Notes under the pieces: generated by a model
The model's input: the letters and a program-made list of their open reading frames with translations, nothing else
What the model was told of the DNA's origin: nothing
Databases searched by the model: none
Assembly: GCF_000144695.1 (NCBI RefSeq)
Contig: NC_014378.1
Location: forward strand, 1,615,833-1,679,832
Length of the DNA stretch: 64,000 nucleotides
Reading direction: 5' to 3'
From: Acetohalobium arabaticum DSM 5501
GTDB lineage: Bacteria; Bacillota; Halanaerobiia; Halobacteroidales; Acetohalobiaceae
Shown: piece by piece, positions 1,038 to 62,462 of the stretch
How the letters are laid out: the number at the start of each line of letters is the position of its first letter
Numbering within the stretch: the stretch's first letter is position 1
Position numbers and translations under genes: made by a program

Positions 1038-1405
1038 TTCATGATATTGCAGGAATAGTCAATATATTATTGTGATTATCACCAATGAGAGTTGTTGTAA
1101 GCATATATTGACTATTCTGGGTTATTTCGGAGAGAAAAAAGTATCTGAAAAGGAAAAACTTTCTAGACTGAACAGAGCAGAAATTTCATTGAGTTGGTTT
1201 TAAACACGCCCTTCAGATAATTTTGCATAATTATTGTTGATATATTTCAAAAAGCAACTTAAAGCAGCCCCAAATACAAAGAGTATTAATATACAAAGTA
1301 GAAGTTTTAAGTTATAGCTCTAAGTATAATTTATTGCTAATTGATAAGGGCTGATTTTGGCAGCGTTTGAAATATATCAACTCCAAACTGCAACATTACA
1401 TCAAT
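1038..1405 (-). repeat. Mosaic intergenic repeat R1 (A, C and D modules, no B)
   Basis: Non-coding copy of the R family. It holds module C (ends AATAGTCAATATAT / ATATATTGACTATT, about 1055-1125), then a degenerate module D, then a diverged module A whose inverted ends read GTTGATATATTTCAA and TTGAAATATATCAAC. It ends with a degenerate right terminal repeat (AACTGCAACATTACATCAAT) directly against the pgpA stop codon. The outer left terminal repeat and module B are absent. It occupies almost the whole gap between pgpA and the membrane protein gene. No protein-coding ORF is credible in it. Confidence 0.8.
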
Positions 1406-12197: not shown

Positions 12198-12731
12198 ATT
12201 GATATATTGTGTCACTCTACAATGTTTCCGTATATACCCTTTATTTGTAATTTTCTATCATAATCGGTATAATCTCATTCATGATATTGCGGGAATAATC
12301 AATATGTATCCGCCGCTTGCCGTTCGTTCGACATCCTGTCTCACTCACTGTCAAAAACTGGCCCTCCATCGTCCGTGATTCCGGGCCAGTTTTAAGAGTC
12401 GCTCTGGACACATATTGACTATTGATAATAAAATATATTGCTGTGATTATCACCAATGAGAGTTATTGAAAGCATATATTGACTATTTATGGTATTACAG
12501 AACAGAAATTTCATTGGTTTGGGTTTTAACGCTTTCCCTCAGATAATTTTGCACAATTTAGTTGATATCTTGCAAAAAGCGACTTTAAAGCAGTCCCACA
12601 AGAGAGAATAGTTAACATATAAAGCGGAATCTTTAAATCATAATACTAAGATTTATTTACTGCTAAGTGACTAGGACTGATTTCTGGAGCGTTTGCAAGA
12701 TATCAACTCTAAACTGCAACAATATATCAAT
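12198..12731 (-). repeat. Mosaic intergenic repeat R2
   Basis: Full-length copy (534 bp) with outer ends ATTGATATATTG and CAATATATCAAT. From left to right it contains module B (12294-12423), module C (to about 12484), a short linker, and module A (about 12561-12706, ends GTTGATATCTTGCAA and TTGCAAGATATCAAC). The module B stem arms are CTGGCCC (12358-12364) and GGGCCAG (12383-12389). It lies between the argF promoter and the small coiled-coil gene. ORFs crossing it do not look like proteins. Confidence 0.88.
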
Positions 12732-24044: not shown

Positions 24045-24470
24045 ATTGATATATTGTGTCACTTCCCACTTGTAGCTAATATGGTCTCATTCATGATATT
24101 GCAGGAATAGTCAATATGTATCCGCCGCTTGTCGTTCGCTCAACATCCTGTTTCGCTCACTCTCAAAAAACAGTTTTCCGCCGTCCATGGCTCCAAACTG
24201 TTTTTAAGAGTCGCTCTGGACACATATTGACTATTTATAGTACAGAAATTTCATTGGTTTGTTTTTTTTAACGCTTCCTCAGATAATTTTGCACAATTAG
24301 TTGATATCTTGCAACAAGCGACTTTAAAGCAGCCCCATAAGAGAAGATAATTAACATATAAAGTAGGCTCTTTAAATCGTATCTCTAAGATTAGTTTATT
24401 GCTGATTGACTAGGGCTGATTTTCGGAGCGTTTGCAAGATATCAACTCTAAACTGCAACATTATATCAAT
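24045..24470 (-). repeat. Mosaic intergenic repeat R3
   Basis: 426 bp with terminal inverted repeats TTTTATTGATATA / TATATCAATAAAA. Contains module B (24106-24235; stem arms AACAGTTT at 24169-24176 and AAACTGTT at 24195-24202) and module A (about 24300-24445). Modules C and D are absent, so this is the simplest complete form of the family. An apparent 27-codon N-terminal extension of the germination gene falls mostly inside it. Confidence 0.88.
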
Positions 24471-26133: not shown

Positions 26134-27231
26134 GTGAAGACAAGAATCTCTACTTATCAGACAGCTCTATTATTAGTAGTTACCATCTTAGCTACTTCAA
26201 TAGTCTTTTTACCGGAATTAATCATTACCCGGGCTAAACAGGATGCCTGGATAGCAATCATTCTGTTAATCGGGTTTATGGGAGTTATTTCCCTTATCTA
26301 TACTCTACTAACTAGACGAATGGGAAGCACTGACTTGATAAACTTTAACCGCCGAGTGCTAGGCCGAGTTTTGACTATTCCTTTAGGATTGGGCTTAATA
26401 GCTTACTTTCTGATCAGTAGTGGGGTGATTCTCCGCGAAACTTCAGAAATTATGGTTGCTGTTTATATGCCTGAAACTCCACTCTGGTTCTTTATTCTAA
26501 CCGGACTCTTAACAGCAGCGGCTTTTGTCTATTACGGACTAGAGGTTATGGCCCGTTCCTTTGAAATATTATTCTATCTATACCTTGTAGCCTATCTATT
26601 TGCATTCTTGATTGTAATTAAAGACTTATCCCTATCCTTCTTACGGCCAATGTTAGCAGAAGGAATCAAGCCGATACTGCAGGGAGCCTATCCCGGCCTG
26701 CTTTTTTTCGGTGAATTATTTTTGATTCTGCTCTTTGCCCCGCAGATGTCTAAACAGAATCAGGCCCATAAATCATTATTAGGAGCAATTGGTATTATCG
26801 GTACCTTATTTTTAATTGCTGTTATCTCGAGTTTAGCCTTGTTTGGAGCAGAATTAGCCAGTAACTTAACCTTTCCGGTATTGTCAGTCCATAGATATGC
26901 TGAAGCCTTGGGCTTTTTAGAGCGGCTTGATCCGCTATTTATCTTTTACTGGATCGGCAGCGGAATCATTAAGACGGCTATTTTCTTTTATGGTGGTATC
27001 TATATCGGGCAGAAGCTGCTCGGACTATCTACATATTATGCTTTAATTCCATTTGCTTTACCGCCAGTCTTTTATACTGCCTTTTATTACTTTCAGAATG
27101 TAGCAGAGATCGCTGAATTTTTAACTACTGCTATACCGTATTATCTCTTTATTCAGGTGTTCTACCCACTATTATTATTAATCATCAGTCTCATCAGAGG
27201 AATCAAAGCTGAGGAAGGGAGAGACAGATGA
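26134..27231 (+). CDS. gerKB: Germinant receptor B subunit, first copy (GerKB-like permease)
   Basis: 365 residues with about ten membrane segments, the spore-germination amino-acid permease family (AAT type). It starts with GTG at 26134 behind AAAGGAG, 16 bases after the A subunit. Characteristic parts are LLVVTILATSIVFLPE, the short NFNRRVLGR loop, and a conserved YPLLLLIISLIRG end. It sits in the inner spore membrane and probably forms the germinant-binding membrane core. The next gene is a close paralogue: their first 30 residues differ at only four or five positions. The two overlap by four bases. Confidence 0.9.
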   Translation: MKTRISTYQTALLLVVTILATSIVFLPELIITRAKQDAWIAIILLIGFMGVISLIYTLLTRRMGSTDLINFNRRVLGRVLTIPLGLGLIAYFLISSGVILRETSEIMVAVYMPETPLWFFILTGLLTAAAFVYYGLEVMARSFEILFYLYLVAYLFAFLIVIKDLSLSFLRPMLAEGIKPILQGAYPGLLFFGELFLILLFAPQMSKQNQAHKSLLGAIGIIGTLFLIAVISSLALFGAELASNLTFPVLSVHRYAEALGFLERLDPLFIFYWIGSGIIKTAIFFYGGIYIGQKLLGLSTYYALIPFALPPVFYTAFYYFQNVAEIAEFLTTAIPYYLFIQVFYPLLLLIISLIRGIKAEEGRDR

Positions 27232-28319
27232 AGACTAGAATCTCTACTTATCAGGCAACTCTATTATTGGTAGTTACTGTCCTGGCTACTTCGATAGTCT
27301 TTCTGCCGGAATTAGTCATTACCCGGGCTAAGCAGGATGCCTGGCTGGCAGGTATCTTATTAATCAGTTTTGCTGTAATCAATGCTGTTATTTATATATT
27401 ATTAACCAGAAGAATGGGGCGAACTGATTTGATTAACTTTAACCGCCAAGTATTGGGGAATCTCTTAACTATTCCGGTAGGACTAGGATTAATAGCTTAC
27501 TTTCTGATCAGTAGCGGAATTGTTATCCGTGATACTGCTGAAATCATGATTGGTGTCTATATGCCGGAGACTCCACTCTGGTTCTTTATTCTGACTACTC
27601 TATTAACAGCAGCAGCCTTTGTCTACTACGGCTTAGAAGTGATGGCCCGTTCCTTTGAAATCATCTTTTACTTCTTTATAATTACTTTTCTGGTGATATT
27701 CTTAATGATAGTCCCGGACTTATCAACTGCCTTTATTCAACCTGTCTTAGGCGATGGTATAGCACCGGTACTAAAGGGTGCTTATCCAGGTTTGAGATTC
27801 TTTGGTGAATTCTTCTTAATCCTTATCCTTGCCCCACAGCTAGCAAAGCAGAAAGAAGCTTATAAATCCCTATTGGGAGCAATTATAATCTTAGGTATTC
27901 TATTCTTAATGACTATTCTCTCGGCTTTAATGTTATTTGGAGCAGAACTGGCCAGTGAGTTAACCTTTCCTCTGCTGTCAGTACATAGATATGCTGAAGC
28001 TTTGGGCTTTCTCGAACGGCTTGATCCGCTATTTATCTTTTACTGGGTCGGAGGCAATATCTTTAAAGCAGCTATCTTCATCTATGGTGCTGTCTATACT
28101 GGACAGAAGCTGCTGGGGCTTTCTACTTATTATATTTTAATTCCCTTTACTCTACCGATCATCTTCTACTTTGGATTTTATTACTTTCAAAACGTAGCAG
28201 AAATATCTAAATTTATAATGTCAACTATACCATACTATCTAGCTATTCAGACCTTCTATCCGCTGGTATTATTGATTATTAGTATCTTAAGGAGGATTCA
28301 GACCAATGAAACCAGCTAA
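27228..28319 (+). CDS. gerKB: Germinant receptor B subunit, second copy (tandem duplicate)
   Basis: 363 residues with the same topology and the same blocks as the preceding gene (IVFLPELVITRAKQDAW, YMPETPLWFFILT, VHRYAEALGFLERLDPLFIFYW). It is clearly a tandem duplicate. Differences concentrate in the loops and in membrane segments near residues 145-230, where ligand contacts might differ. ATG overlaps the first copy by four bases, and its 3-prime end overlaps the C subunit by 14, so all four genes are translationally linked. Having two B subunits in one operon may widen germinant range or tune it. Confidence 0.9.
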   Translation: MKTRISTYQATLLLVVTVLATSIVFLPELVITRAKQDAWLAGILLISFAVINAVIYILLTRRMGRTDLINFNRQVLGNLLTIPVGLGLIAYFLISSGIVIRDTAEIMIGVYMPETPLWFFILTTLLTAAAFVYYGLEVMARSFEIIFYFFIITFLVIFLMIVPDLSTAFIQPVLGDGIAPVLKGAYPGLRFFGEFFLILILAPQLAKQKEAYKSLLGAIIILGILFLMTILSALMLFGAELASELTFPLLSVHRYAEALGFLERLDPLFIFYWVGGNIFKAAIFIYGAVYTGQKLLGLSTYYILIPFTLPIIFYFGFYYFQNVAEISKFIMSTIPYYLAIQTFYPLVLLIISILRRIQTNETS

Positions 28320-31039: not shown

Positions 31040-31637
31040 ATTGAGATAATGTTGCAGTTTAGAGTTGATATCTTGCAAACGCTCCGAAAATCAGTCCTAG
31101 TCATTCAGTAATAAATTGCCCTTATAGCTAATTTTAAAATTTTAGCTTATATGATAATCATTCTCTCTTTTGGGACTGCTTTAAAGTCGCTTGTTGCAAG
31201 ATATCAACTAATTGTGCAAAATAATCTGAGGGGCGTGTTAAAACCAGATTAATGAAATTTCTGTGCTGTAATTGCAGCAATACATTTTGTTATCAATAGT
31301 CAATATGTGTCCAGAGCGACTCTCACTGGCGCTAACCGCAACGTCCTGTTGCAGCGCCAGTACTAGGACGTCCTGTCCGTCGTTAAAACTAACCCGGAAC
31401 CATGGAGGCTGTAGAGAAACAGATTTTAGCTCCTTGTTTTTAAATCAGAGCATTAATATTATCTCTTTGCTCAATAAGTTCATCCCATAGCCAGCATTGG
31501 TTTGTATGCTGGCTATGGTGGAAGGCTAGTTTTCGAGAGTGAGTGAGACAGGACGTCGAACGAACGGCAAGCGGCGGATACATATTGACTATAATCTGCA
31601 ATATCTTGAAAGTACAAAACTGCAACAATTTAAGTTG
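31040..31637 (+). repeat. Mosaic intergenic repeat R4
   Basis: About 598 bp filling the convergent gap between DUF3231 and argD. Left end ATTGAGATAATGTTGCAG (slightly diverged), then module A (about 31064-31210), then module B (31295-31592) enlarged by two insertions in its arms and loop: a hairpin TGGCGCT / AGCGCCA near 31323-31363, and a loop insert of about 110 bp with CCATAGCCAGCAT / ATGCTGGCTATGG (near 31490-31520). The same loop insert occurs in R7. The module B stem is AAAACTAACC / GGCTAGTTTT with one mismatch. Right end is degenerate, four bases from the argD stop. Confidence 0.82.
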
Positions 31638-36097: not shown

Positions 36098-36563
36098 ATT
36101 GATATATTGTGTCACTTTCCATTTGCAGCTAATATAGTTTCTTTCATGATATTACGGGAATAGTCAATATGTATCCGCCGCTTGTCGTTCGCTCAACGTC
36201 CTGTTTCGCTCACTGTCAAAAACTGCCCCTCCGTCGTCCATGACTCCGGGTCAGTTTTAAGAATCACTCTGGACACATATTGACTATCTGTAATAAAGTG
36301 TTATCATCAATGAAAGTTACATTTAGAAGTTACTCTAGATACATGATAATATATTAGATTACAAATAGTCAACATTTCTCTAGAGCGACTCTTAAGATTA
36401 GTCCGGAACCACGGACGGTGGAGGACTAATCTTTGAGAATGAGTGAGACAGGACGTCGAACGAATGGCAAGCGTAAGAGATTTGTTGACTATAATCTGCA
36501 ATATCTTAAACGAACGGCAAGTGTTTGCAAGATATCAACTCTAAACTGCAACAATATATCAAT
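36098..36563 (-). repeat. Mosaic intergenic repeat R5, in the argC leader
   Basis: 466 bp with outer ends ATTGATATATTG / CAATATATCAAT. It has two module B copies in opposite orientation: B1 at 36159-36287 and a diverged B2 at 36364-36492. The B1 stem is CTGCCCC / GGGTCAG with one mismatch; the B2 stem is AAGATTAGTCC (36394-36404) / GGACTAATCTT (36423-36433), perfect. Only the right end of module A remains (TTGCAAGATATCAAC near 36524-36540). It lies between the arg promoter (36579-36607) and argC. Confidence 0.87.
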
Positions 36564-39726: not shown

Positions 39727-40362
39727 ATTGATATATTGTTGCAGTTTCAAGATATTGCAGTGATAGTCAATATGTATCCGCCACTTGCCGTTCGTTCGAC
39801 GTCCTGTCTTACTCACTGTCAAAAACTGACCCTCCGCCGTCCATGGCTCCGGGTCAGTTTTAAGAGTCGCTTTGGACACATATTGACTATTGATAATAAA
39901 ATATATTGCTGTGATTATCACCAATGAGAGTTGCTATAAACATATATTGACTATTTGCGGTATTACATTGTAATCACAACCTGGTTGTTTCGGAGTGAAA
40001 TCTAGCTTTTTTCATCACAACTTCTGATTGCTTTCAAAATAACTCAGCCACATCATGAGAGTCTAACTTATTTGCAATTAGCAACAGAAGAGAAAAAAGA
40101 TCTAGAGCGGAGAAACTTCCCAGACTGTAATTACAGAACGGAAATTTCGTTAATATGGTTTCACGCCACTTCCGATAATTTTGCACAATTAGTTGATATC
40201 TTGCAACAAGCGACTTTAAAGCAGCCCCAAAAGAGAAAATGGCTAACATATAAAGTAGGGTATTCAAACAGTAGCTCTAAGGTTAATTTATTGCTAATTA
40301 ATCAGGGCTGATTTTCGGAGCGTTTGCAAGATATCAACTCTAAACTGCAACAATATATCAAT
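39727..40362 (-). repeat. Mosaic intergenic repeat R6
   Basis: 636 bp with clear outer ends ATTGATATATTGTTGCAG / CTGCAACAATATATCAAT. Module order: B (39763-39891, stem AAACTGACCC at 39823-39832 and GGGTCAGTTT at 39851-39860), C (to about 39953), an enlarged module D (about 39978-40125, interrupted by roughly 80 bp), and A (about 40193-40343). It ends 13 bases before the surE stop codon. Frames across it give no credible protein. Confidence 0.88.
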
Positions 40363-49333: not shown

Positions 49334-50986
49334 TTATTCACTTTTCAAGTCTTCTAAAACTGAATAAGCAATTTTAGTTACTTGGTCACCTATATGTTCT
49401 ACATTTTTAAGTACATCTAAAAAGACAACTCCGGATACCGGTAAACAGTCTCCATCATTTAACCGTCCTAAATGAGAATTGCGATAATCCTTTTCTAAAG
49501 TATCGATTTCACCTTCTAATTCTAAAAGTTTATTAGCTTTCTTAATATCCAATTCCTCTAAAGCTTTAATGGAAATCTGCACAGCTTCATCTACCTTTTT
49601 AAACATATACTCAATATCTTCTATAGCCTGTCCAGAAAACTCAAGCTTATGTTCAATTTTATATTCAGCTAATTCAGCAATATTCTCAGCATTATCGGCT
49701 ACACTTTCAATAGCATCTACTAGCTTTAAGTATCCATTAAGTCTGCTGATATCCTTTTCCGATAAAGACTTATTCGAAATATCAGTTAAGTAAGCTACAA
49801 TACTGCATTCTAAATCATTAATAACCTCTTCAATCTCTTTAATCTCAGCTGCCAAGTCCTCATCTTCACTTAAAAAAGATTCTTGAGCCTTAATAACAGA
49901 CTTTTGTGACAATTTACTCATTCTGATCAATTCTTTTTTAGTCTGATCTAGAGCAACACCTGGAGTTTCAATCATTCTTTCATCAATATACTTAGTCCCG
50001 CTCTTAAACTCCACATCTTTTTCAGGTATTAATGAAGTAACTACTTTTACTATAACGCCTACAAAAGGCAGCCAGAGAAGAGTATTTAAAATATTGAAGG
50101 CTGAGTGGGTATTCGCCAATAATCTACCGGCACTGACCTCCTGCCCAAAATAATTGGATAGACCAATAAAGAACTTTTCTAATGCTGCTGGTAAGTCTGG
50201 AATCAAATATAAAGCAGCAATAAATGTAAAAGTACCAAGTACATTAAAGATCATATGGGCCATAGCTGAACGCCTAGCAGTAGAGTTAGTCCCAACACTA
50301 GATAATAAAGCAGTTATAGTAGTTCCGATATTATCTCCTAATAAAATAGGTACTGCCATCTGATAAGTAATGGCATTTACTGATATAAGACTAATTAAGA
50401 TACCAATACTAGCACTACTGCTTTGAACCATAACAGTCACTACAGTCCCCAATATAACTCCTAAAATCGGCGAAGATCCAAACCTCTCCATCGCAACAGC
50501 AAACATCTGTGAATCACGCAGAGGTCTCATGGTTTCCTTCATAGTGCTTAAACCTAAAAAAAGAATACCAAACCCTAGCAGAACCTGACCTATATACTTA
50601 GTCTTCCGCTTCTTTCCAAATAAGTATAGAGCAGCTCCTATAGCAATAGCATGGAAGGAATAATGTGATATTTTAAAGGCAATTAATTGAGCAGTAATTG
50701 TAGTCCCAATATTGGCCCCCATAATAACTCCAATAGACTGTTTTAAAGTCATCAAACCAGCATTAACAAAGCCTACCACCATAACAGTAGTAGCACTACT
50801 GCTCTGGATAATAGCAGTTACACCTGTCCCCACTAACACCCCTGCTATGCGATTAGTGGTCAACATCTCCAATAACTGTCGCAGTTTTTTTCCTGCTGTT
50901 TTCTGTAAACCATCTCCCATCTGCTTCATTCCATAGATAAAAAGCCCTAGTCCCCCTAACAGATTAAATATCATTCCTAGCGACAA
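49334..50986 (-). CDS. nptA: Na/Pi cotransporter with PhoU-like tail
   Basis: 550 residues. About eight membrane segments with two repeated QSSSATT/QSSSAS elements (near residues 63 and 185), each followed by a GANIGTT or GDNIGTT box; these are the Na/Pi cotransporter signature. The C-terminal 200 residues are helical and PhoU-like ([38 protein letters not shown]-type, shown only in part). It should use the Na+ gradient to move phosphate. Start is TTG at 50986 behind GGAG. The adjacent gene upstream encodes the transporter part only. It ends in a strong terminator. Confidence 0.92.
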
Positions 50987-51022
50987 AACACTTCACTCCT
51001 CCACAAATTATTAATTACCTCA

Positions 51023-51031
51023 ATTATAACA
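51023..51031 (-). promoter_or_regulatory. Extended -10 promoter of nptA
   Basis: Minus strand TGTTATAAT, 37 bases before the TTG start; no good -35. Confidence 0.5.
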
Positions 51032-51054
51032 TATAAAAGTTAGAAATACTAGTT

Positions 51055-51996
51055 TTAAGTTCTACTAAATGCATAAGTAATTGACTCGACTAACCAGTAG
51101 AATCTGTCAAATAACAAAAAAAATAAAATAGCATTAATTAAATTAAATCCAGTATGTCCGTTAGCAATTTGGCGGGCTAGATTACTGCTAGTAAGAGTAA
51201 TTAAAGAGGAATAGAAGTTAACCATAGGTAGAAAGATTAATGCCCCTACAAAATTAAAGATAATATGTCCTATCGCTATCTTCTTTGCTGTTGCAGAGCT
51301 ATTAACTGCTGCAATCACAGCAGTAATACAGGTACCTATATTACTACCTAATAATAATCTAAGTGCAGTAGACAGCTGAATTAAGTTCTGTTTAGCTAAA
51401 GCAAGGATAACTCCTATAAAAGCACTACTGCTTTGAAGAATAGCTGTTCCAGCCACTCCGCTTCCTAAAGCCAAAAATGAATTCCCTGATAATCTAAAGA
51501 TAATTCTTAAAAAAAATTCTGTATCTTTCAGCGGAGCAAAAGCAGCAGTCAATAAATTTAATCCGAAAAATATAAGCCCAAAACCAATAAAGACTCCAGT
51601 ATAACTCAACCATTTATCATCTTCTGACTTATAATAAATAAAATAACAGATTACTCCTATAAGAAAGAATATCCAAAGATAATTCTCTAGATTAAACGAA
51701 AAGAGCTGACCAGTAACTGTAGTTCCAATATTAGCACCAAGTACTAAGCTCAATGCTTGATATACCCCCAACAAGCCAGCATTGACAAAACTCATAATCA
51801 ATACTATTGTGGCACTACTGCTCTGAAAAAGAACTGTGATTAACATCCCAACTACTAGGCTGAATAATCTATTCTCAGTAATTTTATGTAGTAAAAACTT
51901 AATCCGATAATCAACAGCATCCTTTAAACTGATATTAGTTAGCTTCAAACCATAGATAAAACTAAACAAACCGCTGAACAGAATTATTAAAACCAT
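51055..51996 (-). CDS. Na/Pi symporter domain protein without PhoU tail
   Basis: 313 residues. The same transport core as NptA next door: QSSSATIVLIMS with GANIGTT in the first half, then LQSSSAFIGVI and GSNIGTC in the second, with about eight membrane segments. It ends after the transport domain and lacks the PhoU-like regulatory tail of the neighbour. The core is intact, so it is probably functional; the pair may be paralogues with different control or substrate. ATG behind GGGGAGAGG. The gap to nptA is 68 bases with an nptA promoter in it. Confidence 0.88.
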   Translation of the reverse strand: MVLIILFSGLFSFIYGLKLTNISLKDAVDYRIKFLLHKITENRLFSLVVGMLITVLFQSSSATIVLIMSFVNAGLLGVYQALSLVLGANIGTTVTGQLFSFNLENYLWIFFLIGVICYFIYYKSEDDKWLSYTGVFIGFGLIFFGLNLLTAAFAPLKDTEFFLRIIFRLSGNSFLALGSGVAGTAILQSSSAFIGVILALAKQNLIQLSTALRLLLGSNIGTCITAVIAAVNSSATAKKIAIGHIIFNFVGALIFLPMVNFYSSLITLTSSNLARQIANGHTGFNLINAILFFLLFDRFYWLVESITYAFSRT

Positions 51997-52083: not shown

Positions 52084-52761
52084 ATTGATATATTGTTGCA
52101 GTTTAGAGTTGATATCTTGCAAACGCTCCGAAAATCAGCCCTAGTCACTCAGCAGTAAATCAACCTTAGTGTTACGATTTAAAGATTTCGCTTTATATAT
52201 TAACCTTTCTCTCTTGTGGGACTGCTTTAAAGTCGCTTGTTGCAAGATATCAACTAATTATGCAAAATTATCTGAGGAAGCGTTTAAGACCAGATCAATG
52301 AAAATTTTGTGCTGTAACCACAGCTTGGGAAGTTTCTCCGTTCCAGATCTTTTTTCTCCGAAATAACCCAGGCTGTAATTGCAATGTGATACCACAAATA
52401 GTCAATATATGCTTGTAGCAATTCCTATTAATGATGACCATAGCAATTTATTATATTATAATAGTCAATATGTGTCCAGAGCGACTCTTAAAAACAGTTT
52501 GGAGCCATGGAGGGTCCGCAGGATTATAAATCCTTGCTCCTAGCCTTGTCAATTAGAGCACTAATACTATCTTTTTGCTCAATGAGTTACTCCCATAGCC
52601 AGTATTGGTCTTTATGCTGGCTATGCGGAAAACTGTTTTTTGAGAATGAGTGAGACAGGACGTCGAGCGAATGGCAAGCAGCGGATACATATTGACTATT
52701 CCCGCAATATCATAAATGAGACCACATTAGTCGCAAATAAGAACTGCAACAATATATCAAT
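52084..52761 (+). repeat. Mosaic intergenic repeat R7 (most complete copy)
   Basis: 678 bp with 24-bp near-perfect terminal inverted repeats (TTTTATTGATATATTGTTGC at 52081 and its complement at the right end). Order: A (52108-52254, ends GTTGATATCTTGCAA / TTGCAAGATATCAAC), D (about 52324-52375), C (52395-52466), B (52460-52700). B's stem is AAACAGTTT (52492-52500) / AAACTGTTT (52630-52638), with a loop insert of about 115 bp shared with R4. The gap from 51997 to 52830 contains nothing else that I can support. Confidence 0.9.
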
Positions 52762-54038: not shown

Positions 54039-54056
54039 ATAAGTACAATCAAATAA

Positions 54057-54145
54057 TCAAGCTAGGGGTGCCTTAAATGGCTGAGAGGAGCTTAGCTTCA
54101 ACCCTATAACCTGACCTGGATAATACTAGCGTAGGGAAGCTGCCT
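54057..54145 (+). promoter_or_regulatory. TPP riboswitch (THI element)
   Basis: Contains the conserved cores AGGGGTGCC (54064-54072), GGCTGAGA (54079-54086), ACCC near 54101, AACCTGACCTGGATAATACT and AGCGTAGGGAAGCT. These match the thiamine pyrophosphate aptamer. A terminator hairpin follows, so ligand binding should end transcription before thiS. Confidence 0.95.
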
Positions 54146-54171
54146 GATAAAGTTAACTATCAGTATATATC

Positions 54172-62204: not shown

Positions 62205-62462
62205 CATTATAAAGCCTGGGAAGTTTCTCCGTTCCAGATCTTTTTTCACTCCGAAACAACCCAGGCTGTGATTACAGAGTAAAGTTTTACATAAATATAG
62301 CCAATATATTAGATTACAAATAGTCAACATTTCTCTGAAGCGACTCTTAAAACTGATTCGAAACCACGGACGGTGGAGAATCAGTTTTTGACAATGAGTG
62401 AGACAGGACGTCGAACGAATGGCAAGCGTAAGAGATTTGTTGACTATATCTGCAATATGTTA
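62205..62462 (+). repeat. Mosaic intergenic repeat R8 (partial: D, linker, B)
   Basis: Partial copy of about 258 bp. Module D is intact (62212-62272, GCCTGGG / CCCAGGC ends), followed by module B (62319-62447) of the diverged type also found as B2 in R5 (ends AATAGTCAACATTTCTCT and AGAGATTTGTTGACTAT). Stem AAACTGATTC (62350-62359) / GAATCAGTTT (62378-62387) is perfect. The outer ends and module A are missing. It lies between dpaB and asd, ending about 18 bases before the dpaB stop. Confidence 0.82.

Follow-up and report, generated by a model that had tools for sequence, protein, structure and literature searches.

Nested hairpin modules around a conserved folded domain form candidate non-autonomous mobile elements in Acetohalobium arabaticum

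Introduction

Small bacterial repeats are usually treated genome by genome, and their movement is mostly obscure. The REP/TnpA-REP system combines a short palindrome bearing a GTAG tag with a Y1 transposase. Further systems with points of likeness to the repeats studied here are the miniatures and one-ended derivatives of IS91/IS801, the BOX elements of Streptococcus, the mitochondrial double-hairpin elements, and the TwoAYGGAY RNA family (Rfam RF01731), which in the cited part of its description is proposed to bind CsrA (PMC4333381). A search of the literature returned no description of the element reported here, and no Rfam family explains it.

The window analysed is the whole stretch of 64,000 nucleotides from A. 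arabaticum DSM 5501. The original prediction for this window held that copies of a modular repeat gain, lose and flip modules as units, being small elements that insert into each other or are moved as cassettes. Both the observation and its interpretation were borne out in part, and three points are added that the prediction did not contain: the strand-specific fold of module B, the nature of module A as an inverted relative of B, and an IS91-family link in a relative.

Results

The sequence and module map revealed the eight expected copies, R1 to R8, with the module lists claimed for them. R3 holds only B and A; R8 consists of D and B only and also lacks terminal inverted repeats (TIRs); and R5 carries two opposed B copies, B at 36159-36291 and inverted B at 36364-36492. 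The features are as follows.

36098..36563, plus strand: R5, TIR-bounded composite of L, B, spacer, inverted B and right TIR (TIRs, module map)
36098 and 36551-36563: TIRs of R5, ATTGATATATTGT / ACAATATATCAAT (sequence)
36156..36293, minus strand: first B domain of R5, folded strand minus (152.7 bits with the B covariance model, whose training sequences include R5's own)
36359..36496, plus strand: second B domain of R5, folded strand plus (154.7 bits with the same model, R5 again being among its training sequences)
12198..12731, plus strand: R2, TIR-bounded composite L-B-C-A (near-identical copies elsewhere)
12291..12428, minus strand: B domain of R2 (B covariance model, 155.0 bits)
12432..12487, plus strand: C hairpin of R2 (module match)
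12561..12707, plus strand: A head of R2, stem GTTGATATCTTGC / GCAAGATATCAAC (sequence, module match)
24045..24470, plus strand: R3, composite L-B-A (TIRs)
24103..24240, minus strand: B domain of R3 (B covariance model, 156.5 bits)
24300..24446, plus strand: A head of R3 (sequence)
31040..31630, minus strand: R4, composite L2-B-A with the loop insert and E inside B; one of its TIRs is degenerate and its end is given approximately (module map)
31324..31382, plus strand: insert E of R4, a pair of hairpins whose plus-strand loops read GTCCT (sequence)
31415..31520, plus strand: loop insert of R4, with the hairpin CATAGCCAGCAT, placed in B's P3b loop (module map, alignment)
31057..31217, minus strand: A head of R4, matched by the model built from B alone (29.6 bits and E 1e-4 for 239 kb)
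39727..40362, plus strand: R6, composite L2-B-C-D-A whose D loop holds an additional insert (module map)
39759..39896, minus strand: B domain of R6 (B covariance model, 156.5 bits)
40183..40345, plus strand: A head of R6, matched by the model built from B alone and opposite in strand to B (27.5 bits, E 3.6e-4)
52084..52761, minus strand: R7, composite L-B (loop insert)-C-D-A (module map)
52536..52625, plus strand: loop insert in B of R7 (module map)
52101..52263, minus strand: A head of R7, found by the B-only model (26.7 bits, E 5.9e-4)
1054..1116, plus strand: R1, C joined to 12 nt left over from the 5' arm of B (comparison with R2)
1236..1405, plus strand: A head and right TIR of R1 (sequence)
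62210..62451, plus strand: R8, with a D hairpin, a B domain and no TIRs (module map; B 156.6 bits)

Other features of the window were also recorded. Positions 26135-27997 hold two pairs of 300-nt direct repeats with a spacing of 1,094 bases, 78% and 69% alike, which probably represent a gene duplication. A TPP riboswitch match at the gathering threshold lies at 54054-54154, and four direct repeats of 35 nt, about 400-600 bases apart, lie at 50403-51837.

Use of R5 as query against the A. arabaticum genome (a single contig of 2,469,596 bases) gave 131 matches. The outer TIR pattern occurred 132 times genome-wide, in comparison with one occurrence of the reversed control, and the layout of R1 to R8 is therefore not due to chance. 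At least 61 distinct TIR-bounded copies were resolved, most of them of 280 to 740 bp. R2 was identical to the copy L053 across 534 bp, with unrelated DNA beyond the TIRs, and was 99.8% and 99.4% identical to L014 and L020, again with unrelated flanks. Likewise, L038 and L068 shared 99.5% identity across 731 bp with unrelated flanks beyond the TIRs, and R3 and L058 were 98.4% identical with different flanks. In these recently moved copies the borders of the unit fall exactly at the TIRs. These data show that the composites of A. arabaticum have moved whole, and recently.

Target-site duplications had been suggested as a mark of the module borders. Among 53 A. arabaticum copies there was none of 4 bp or more; duplications of 2-3 bp were at or below chance, and 1-bp duplications numbered 33 against 25 expected. 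Analysis of the joined flanks of the 54 elements having both flanks revealed a preferred insertion site, AT-rich and roughly 22 bp long, that is used in both orientations. Inspection by eye of the ORF lists at eight further TIR places showed no obvious autonomous partner with the same TIRs. Among these places, Pfam was run on the genes of L120 only, and they proved to be of the IS3 family. L120 is a TIR-bounded copy of 1,866 bp, a length due to an IS3-family insertion between B and C (1310-2529 of the locus, at about 639.6-640.8 kb of the contig). These genes were rejected as the element's own transposase because they look like a later insertion.

The B domain is about 130 nt long, and its outer stem doubles as a terminal inverted repeat. 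Within it, one stem has G.A mismatches in tandem and a GGA loop of 5 nt; another has an internal loop of GGA/GGA and a GGA loop of 6 nt. The B covariance model was built from 72 sequences, after one spurious match had been dropped from 73 of suitable length. In the MAFFT alignment (A2) of these 72 sequences, 98.1% of cells were paired and 22 of the 30 pairs had double changes; this alignment was made without structure, yet the structure tested was predicted from it. For 58 distinct sequences from other genera the values were 95.1% and 29 of 30, in rows aligned to the covariance model and hence leaning towards its structure. Slid controls, with the partner shifted by 1 to 3 columns, gave 31-41% pairing.

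The strand that folds was indicated by wobble pairs, which were counted, as were the loops, on the first 58 of 119 A4 rows (full-length B) and all 60 A3 rows after removal of duplicates. On the GGA-loop strand, G.U outnumbered A.C by 97 to 7 in 55 Acetohalobium B domains (22 to 7 after leaving out two mostly-G.U pairs) and by 71 to 20 in 58 B domains elsewhere, with 11 of the 20 A.C cells at one pair; cells were counted per sequence, not as independent events. The consensus energy was -34.1 on the folded strand and -19.4 on the opposite one, and the GGA-loop strand is the one on which the internal loops show tandem G.A and GGA/GGA. The P3b loop motif ANGGA was kept in 53 of 55 Acetohalobium domains and 41 of 58 elsewhere, and the P2 motif AGGA in 54 of 55 and 54 of 58. 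Altogether, the data show that B is a conserved folded domain kept by selection on one strand. The wobble asymmetry tells which strand folds, and is compatible with RNA or with single-stranded DNA.

The B-only model also found the A modules (E 3e-5 to 1e-3 in 239 kb), on the strand opposite the B of the same copy; 33 of the 119 model matches were A heads, as read by eye from their coordinates. By this model, A is a diverged, inverted relative of B, so that the standard composite is two-headed. The wobble count on A heads was 4 G.U to 3 A.C, too even to indicate a strand.

Comparison of the copies showed that their parts reassort. Two left-end types and two B types occurred in all four combinations (14, 10, 13 and 8 copies). 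L013 and L060 have identical B and only 81% identity in A; the reverse is seen in L018 and L041, with A 98% alike, the head identical from its stem on, and B 78%. In the 36 elements that have both B and A in full, Mantel r was 0.10 between B and A, 0.67 between the two halves of B and 0.09 between those of A. Of 142 internal breakpoints, 31 were no more than 6 nt away from a stem border, against 18.4 expected, the breakpoints being non-independent. They are thus somewhat enriched there, while most lie elsewhere; exchange is not strictly modular, and exchange confined to module borders is only weakly supported.

The module changes themselves differed in part from those predicted. It had been proposed that B was cleanly removed from R1; comparison with R2 from position 1054 showed instead that 12 nt of B's own 5' stem arm, AATAGTCAATAT, remain, fused to C through ATAT, an arrangement consistent with a microhomology deletion. 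L022 looks, from its sequence, like a similar deletion at short repeats. Of the outer ends said to be common to B and C, the right end ATATTGACTATT is indeed shared and the left end is not, in the ordinary copies inspected, and the idea that B docks at C found no support. As C sits between two direct repeats of ATATTGACTATT, it may be lost by slippage; it is in tandem in L045 and L061.

The loop insert was confirmed as common to R4 and R7, with a length of about 106 bp (about 110 bp predicted), and lies in the P3b loop of B. The hairpin TGGCGCT/AGCGCCA described for a B arm of R4 was present; it belongs to a module of its own, E, which lies at a homologous junction in B of R4 and L012 and in A of L019. 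In genome G002, B carries a hairpin with ends similar to those of E, and in genome G030 two near-identical B relics carry an insert in the P3b loop, as in A. arabaticum. With regard to the flipping of modules, the opposed orientations of B are real. R5 does not demonstrate a switch: its second B is followed by inverted left-end sequence, which identifies R5 as a head-to-head copy. The same arrangement was found in L010, L015, L026 and L028, and head-to-head B pairs are also present in G030. L011 is a hybrid in which the first B is fused with an inverted second B, apparently by deletion between repeated arms.

The B covariance model matched 13 of 59 genomes of the class, with 55 matches in G030. 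In genomes of the same family B occurs without A, C or D. The original prediction had tied simple deletion from one long ancestor to a lack of solo modules anywhere; B stands without the other modules in other genomes.

The csrA gene was present in all 13 genomes with B, in comparison with 41 of the 59 overall, a co-occurrence uncorrected for kinship. The single B copies of G032 and G035 lie 7-9 kb from csrA, a proximity dropped as coincidence; as seen by eye, they adjoin a transport operon, with flagellar genes further away. In A. arabaticum, counted over the first 82 of 119 A4 rows, B showed no preferred orientation with respect to genes (35 with, 27 against), and among single copies in G030, 29 of 35 ran against the gene direction. 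The orientation of B in G030 followed the chromosome half in 43 of the 51 listed matches (of 55; origin and terminus positions assumed), and in 36 of 41 without the 10 matches in close pairs. Genes there share this trend, only 2 of the 35 single copies being informative, both for replication, and the seven listed B matches of G014 had the opposite sense. Replichore bias was set aside as evidence because it is confounded with gene direction in G030 and opposite in G014.

At its gathering score RF01731 matched nothing in the window. It was likewise without a match in R5 at E 10 and in G000 (A. arabaticum), G001-G004 and G016. Among 41 genomes searched, only G014 had a match, and the best score at the loci of ten relatives was 26.9 bits, the gathering score being 43. 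The B model at the RF01731 places of G014 reached a best E of 0.66, which is not convincing. Two of those places (L128, L129) lie within a dispersed repeat that is bounded by long terminal inverted repeats, CTGCAAAAAGCTAATTTTTCGC, and the TwoAYGGAY RNA family may thus itself be mobile DNA. Rfam matches of R5 to microRNA precursors were rejected, being far below gathering scores and due to its inverted symmetry.

In G030, several B elements adjoin an ORF with Y2_Tnp and Zn_Tnp_IS91 domains, and this genome has eight full-length matches of the IS91-family element. Two ends are common to the autonomous element and the B elements: AGGAAAYTATG...TTGTGGATAACTT on the left and GGGTGGCGNAGCCATTTTGTTC on the right. 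In the stretches fetched, 22 of 27 distinct right ends have the GTTC terminus, and in several places a new element begins directly after GTTC. Scored against shuffled flanks, the left end was found in 13 of 25 G030 copies, the right end in 14 and both in 8; the left end was also found in 5 of 8 copies of G003 and G004. The two ends lay on opposite sides as ter and ori in 8 of the 25 G030 copies when G030's ends were used, and in 7 when those of G032 were used.

In A. arabaticum, G030's left end was found in 5 of 61 copies, the right end in 2 and both in none. The ter-like and ori-like ends of the G032 IS91 element were found in 5 and 7 of the 61 (9 copies altogether), on opposite sides in 3; the highest scores were 22 and 21, the null maxima being 15 and 12.5. 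Inspection by eye of A. arabaticum ends showed no GTTC terminus. Separately, the flanks of L012, L013, L017, L040 and L045 show a GGCC...GGCC hairpin and an GGAAATTAT motif resembling an IS91 end. The solo B flanks that were scored in G001, G002, G014, G016, G017, G023, G025, G032 and G035 had neither end. Matches to PF04986 (Y2 transposase) numbered ten in G030 and none in the A. arabaticum genome, and just 5 of the 13 genomes with B have a Y2 transposase. As an IS91-like end is present in 9 of 61 copies only and the genome has no Y2 transposase, we infer rather than observe mobilisation of this kind in A. arabaticum.

Discussion

We somewhat favour the reading that the composites are non-autonomous mobile elements of nested hairpin modules with B as their core, carried by IS91 in G030. 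The basic unit would be B, of about 130 nt, which probably acts as single-stranded DNA during transposition. In G030, judging from the sequence, B rides between the ends of an IS91-family rolling-circle element, with a GTTC terminus in common; in A. arabaticum it is joined with the inverted, diverged A, the hairpins C and D and outer TIRs. As read from the alignments, the variants come from nested insertion, into loops or at junctions, from deletions at short repeats, from the pairing of copies head to head, and from the reassortment of their parts. The TIR-bounded composites of A. arabaticum moved without an IS91-type shell, which IS91 leaves unexplained.

By another explanation, which we regard as less likely yet quite possible, the elements would be of the MITE kind, with TIRs recognised by a transposase acting in trans, and B would have been inserted by chance at the IS91 ends of G030, their association being incidental. 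The clear TIRs, at which the recently moved copies are exactly bounded, the preference for an AT-rich target entered in both orientations, and the few IS91-like ends and missing Y2 transposase of A. arabaticum all agree with it. Against it stand the absence of target duplications of 4 bp or more and of any obvious transposase of the element's own in the ORF lists, read by eye, of the eight further TIR places; it also leaves the one-strand fold and the common ends of G030 unexplained. It is unlikely that B is a CsrA-binding regulatory RNA with two GGA-loop hairpins per head that would have spread as a mobile sponge. The anatomy of B does resemble that of the Rfam family proposed, in the cited part of its report (PMC4333381), to bind CsrA, with the GGA loops kept in P3b and P2, and csrA accompanies B in 13 of 13 genomes (41 of 59 overall); this co-occurrence is nevertheless uncorrected for kinship, B shows no orientation preference in A. 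arabaticum (35 vs 27) and mostly opposes genes as single copies in G030 (29 of 35), and R5 is unmatched by RF01731 even at E 10.

Decay of one long ancestor by internal deletion would account for R1 and L022, which resemble microhomology deletions, and for C, which can be lost between direct repeats. As the source of all variants it is highly improbable: B occurs without other modules in other genera, which contradicts it, identical units stand at new sites, modules reassort and nested inserts are found in two different hosts. The movement of whole units, reassortment, solo B and nested inserts thus support mobile elements over decay, and small moving, nesting elements, as originally predicted, hold better. 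That several small elements exist, some nested within others, with units moving whole and parts reassorting, is likewise supported.

A broader view is doubtful and is offered tentatively. B might represent a class-wide mobile lineage in which a folded, strand-specific, non-coding domain is the unit of selection, a structured single-stranded DNA that HUH rolling-circle transposition would carry as cargo or use for recognition, and that could flip, pair head to head and take smaller hairpins into its loops, the elements growing by such nesting. If so, TwoAYGGAY RNAs would be such mobile DNA instead of regulators. One folded domain can be traced across 13 genomes, from solo B to elaborate nested composites, and its copies serve as concrete cases of modules being gained, lost and swapped. 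Through the common ends of G030, a connection that can be tested is drawn between hairpin repeats, HUH transposition and a group of candidate RNAs.

With regard to known systems, the two GGA-loop hairpins and the tandem G.A in a stem are shared with TwoAYGGAY RF01731, as far as the cited part of PMC4333381 and the family name describe it; RF01731 differs in that R5 is unmatched, the order of hairpins is another in the G014 copies, and it lies there in a dispersed repeat of its own. The mitochondrial double-hairpin elements are likewise small mobile hairpins, but organellar. BOX of Streptococcus, in the portion of PMC3049150 cited, is similar in architecture, with a fixed module order, variable content, predicted stem-loops and mutual insertion; BOX has target duplications, whereas B has a class-wide spread and the IS91 link. 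The miniatures and one-ended derivatives of IS91/IS801, as presented in the cited part of PMC3189936, are also non-autonomous, with IS91-family ends, no target duplication and a tetranucleotide terminus, and tandem insertion immediately behind an earlier copy, as seen in G030, is a further likeness (PMC3189936). Those miniatures are described there as fragments of the IS, whereas the interior of B is a conserved folded domain common to several genera and, unlike them, the A. arabaticum copies carry TIRs (PMC3189936).
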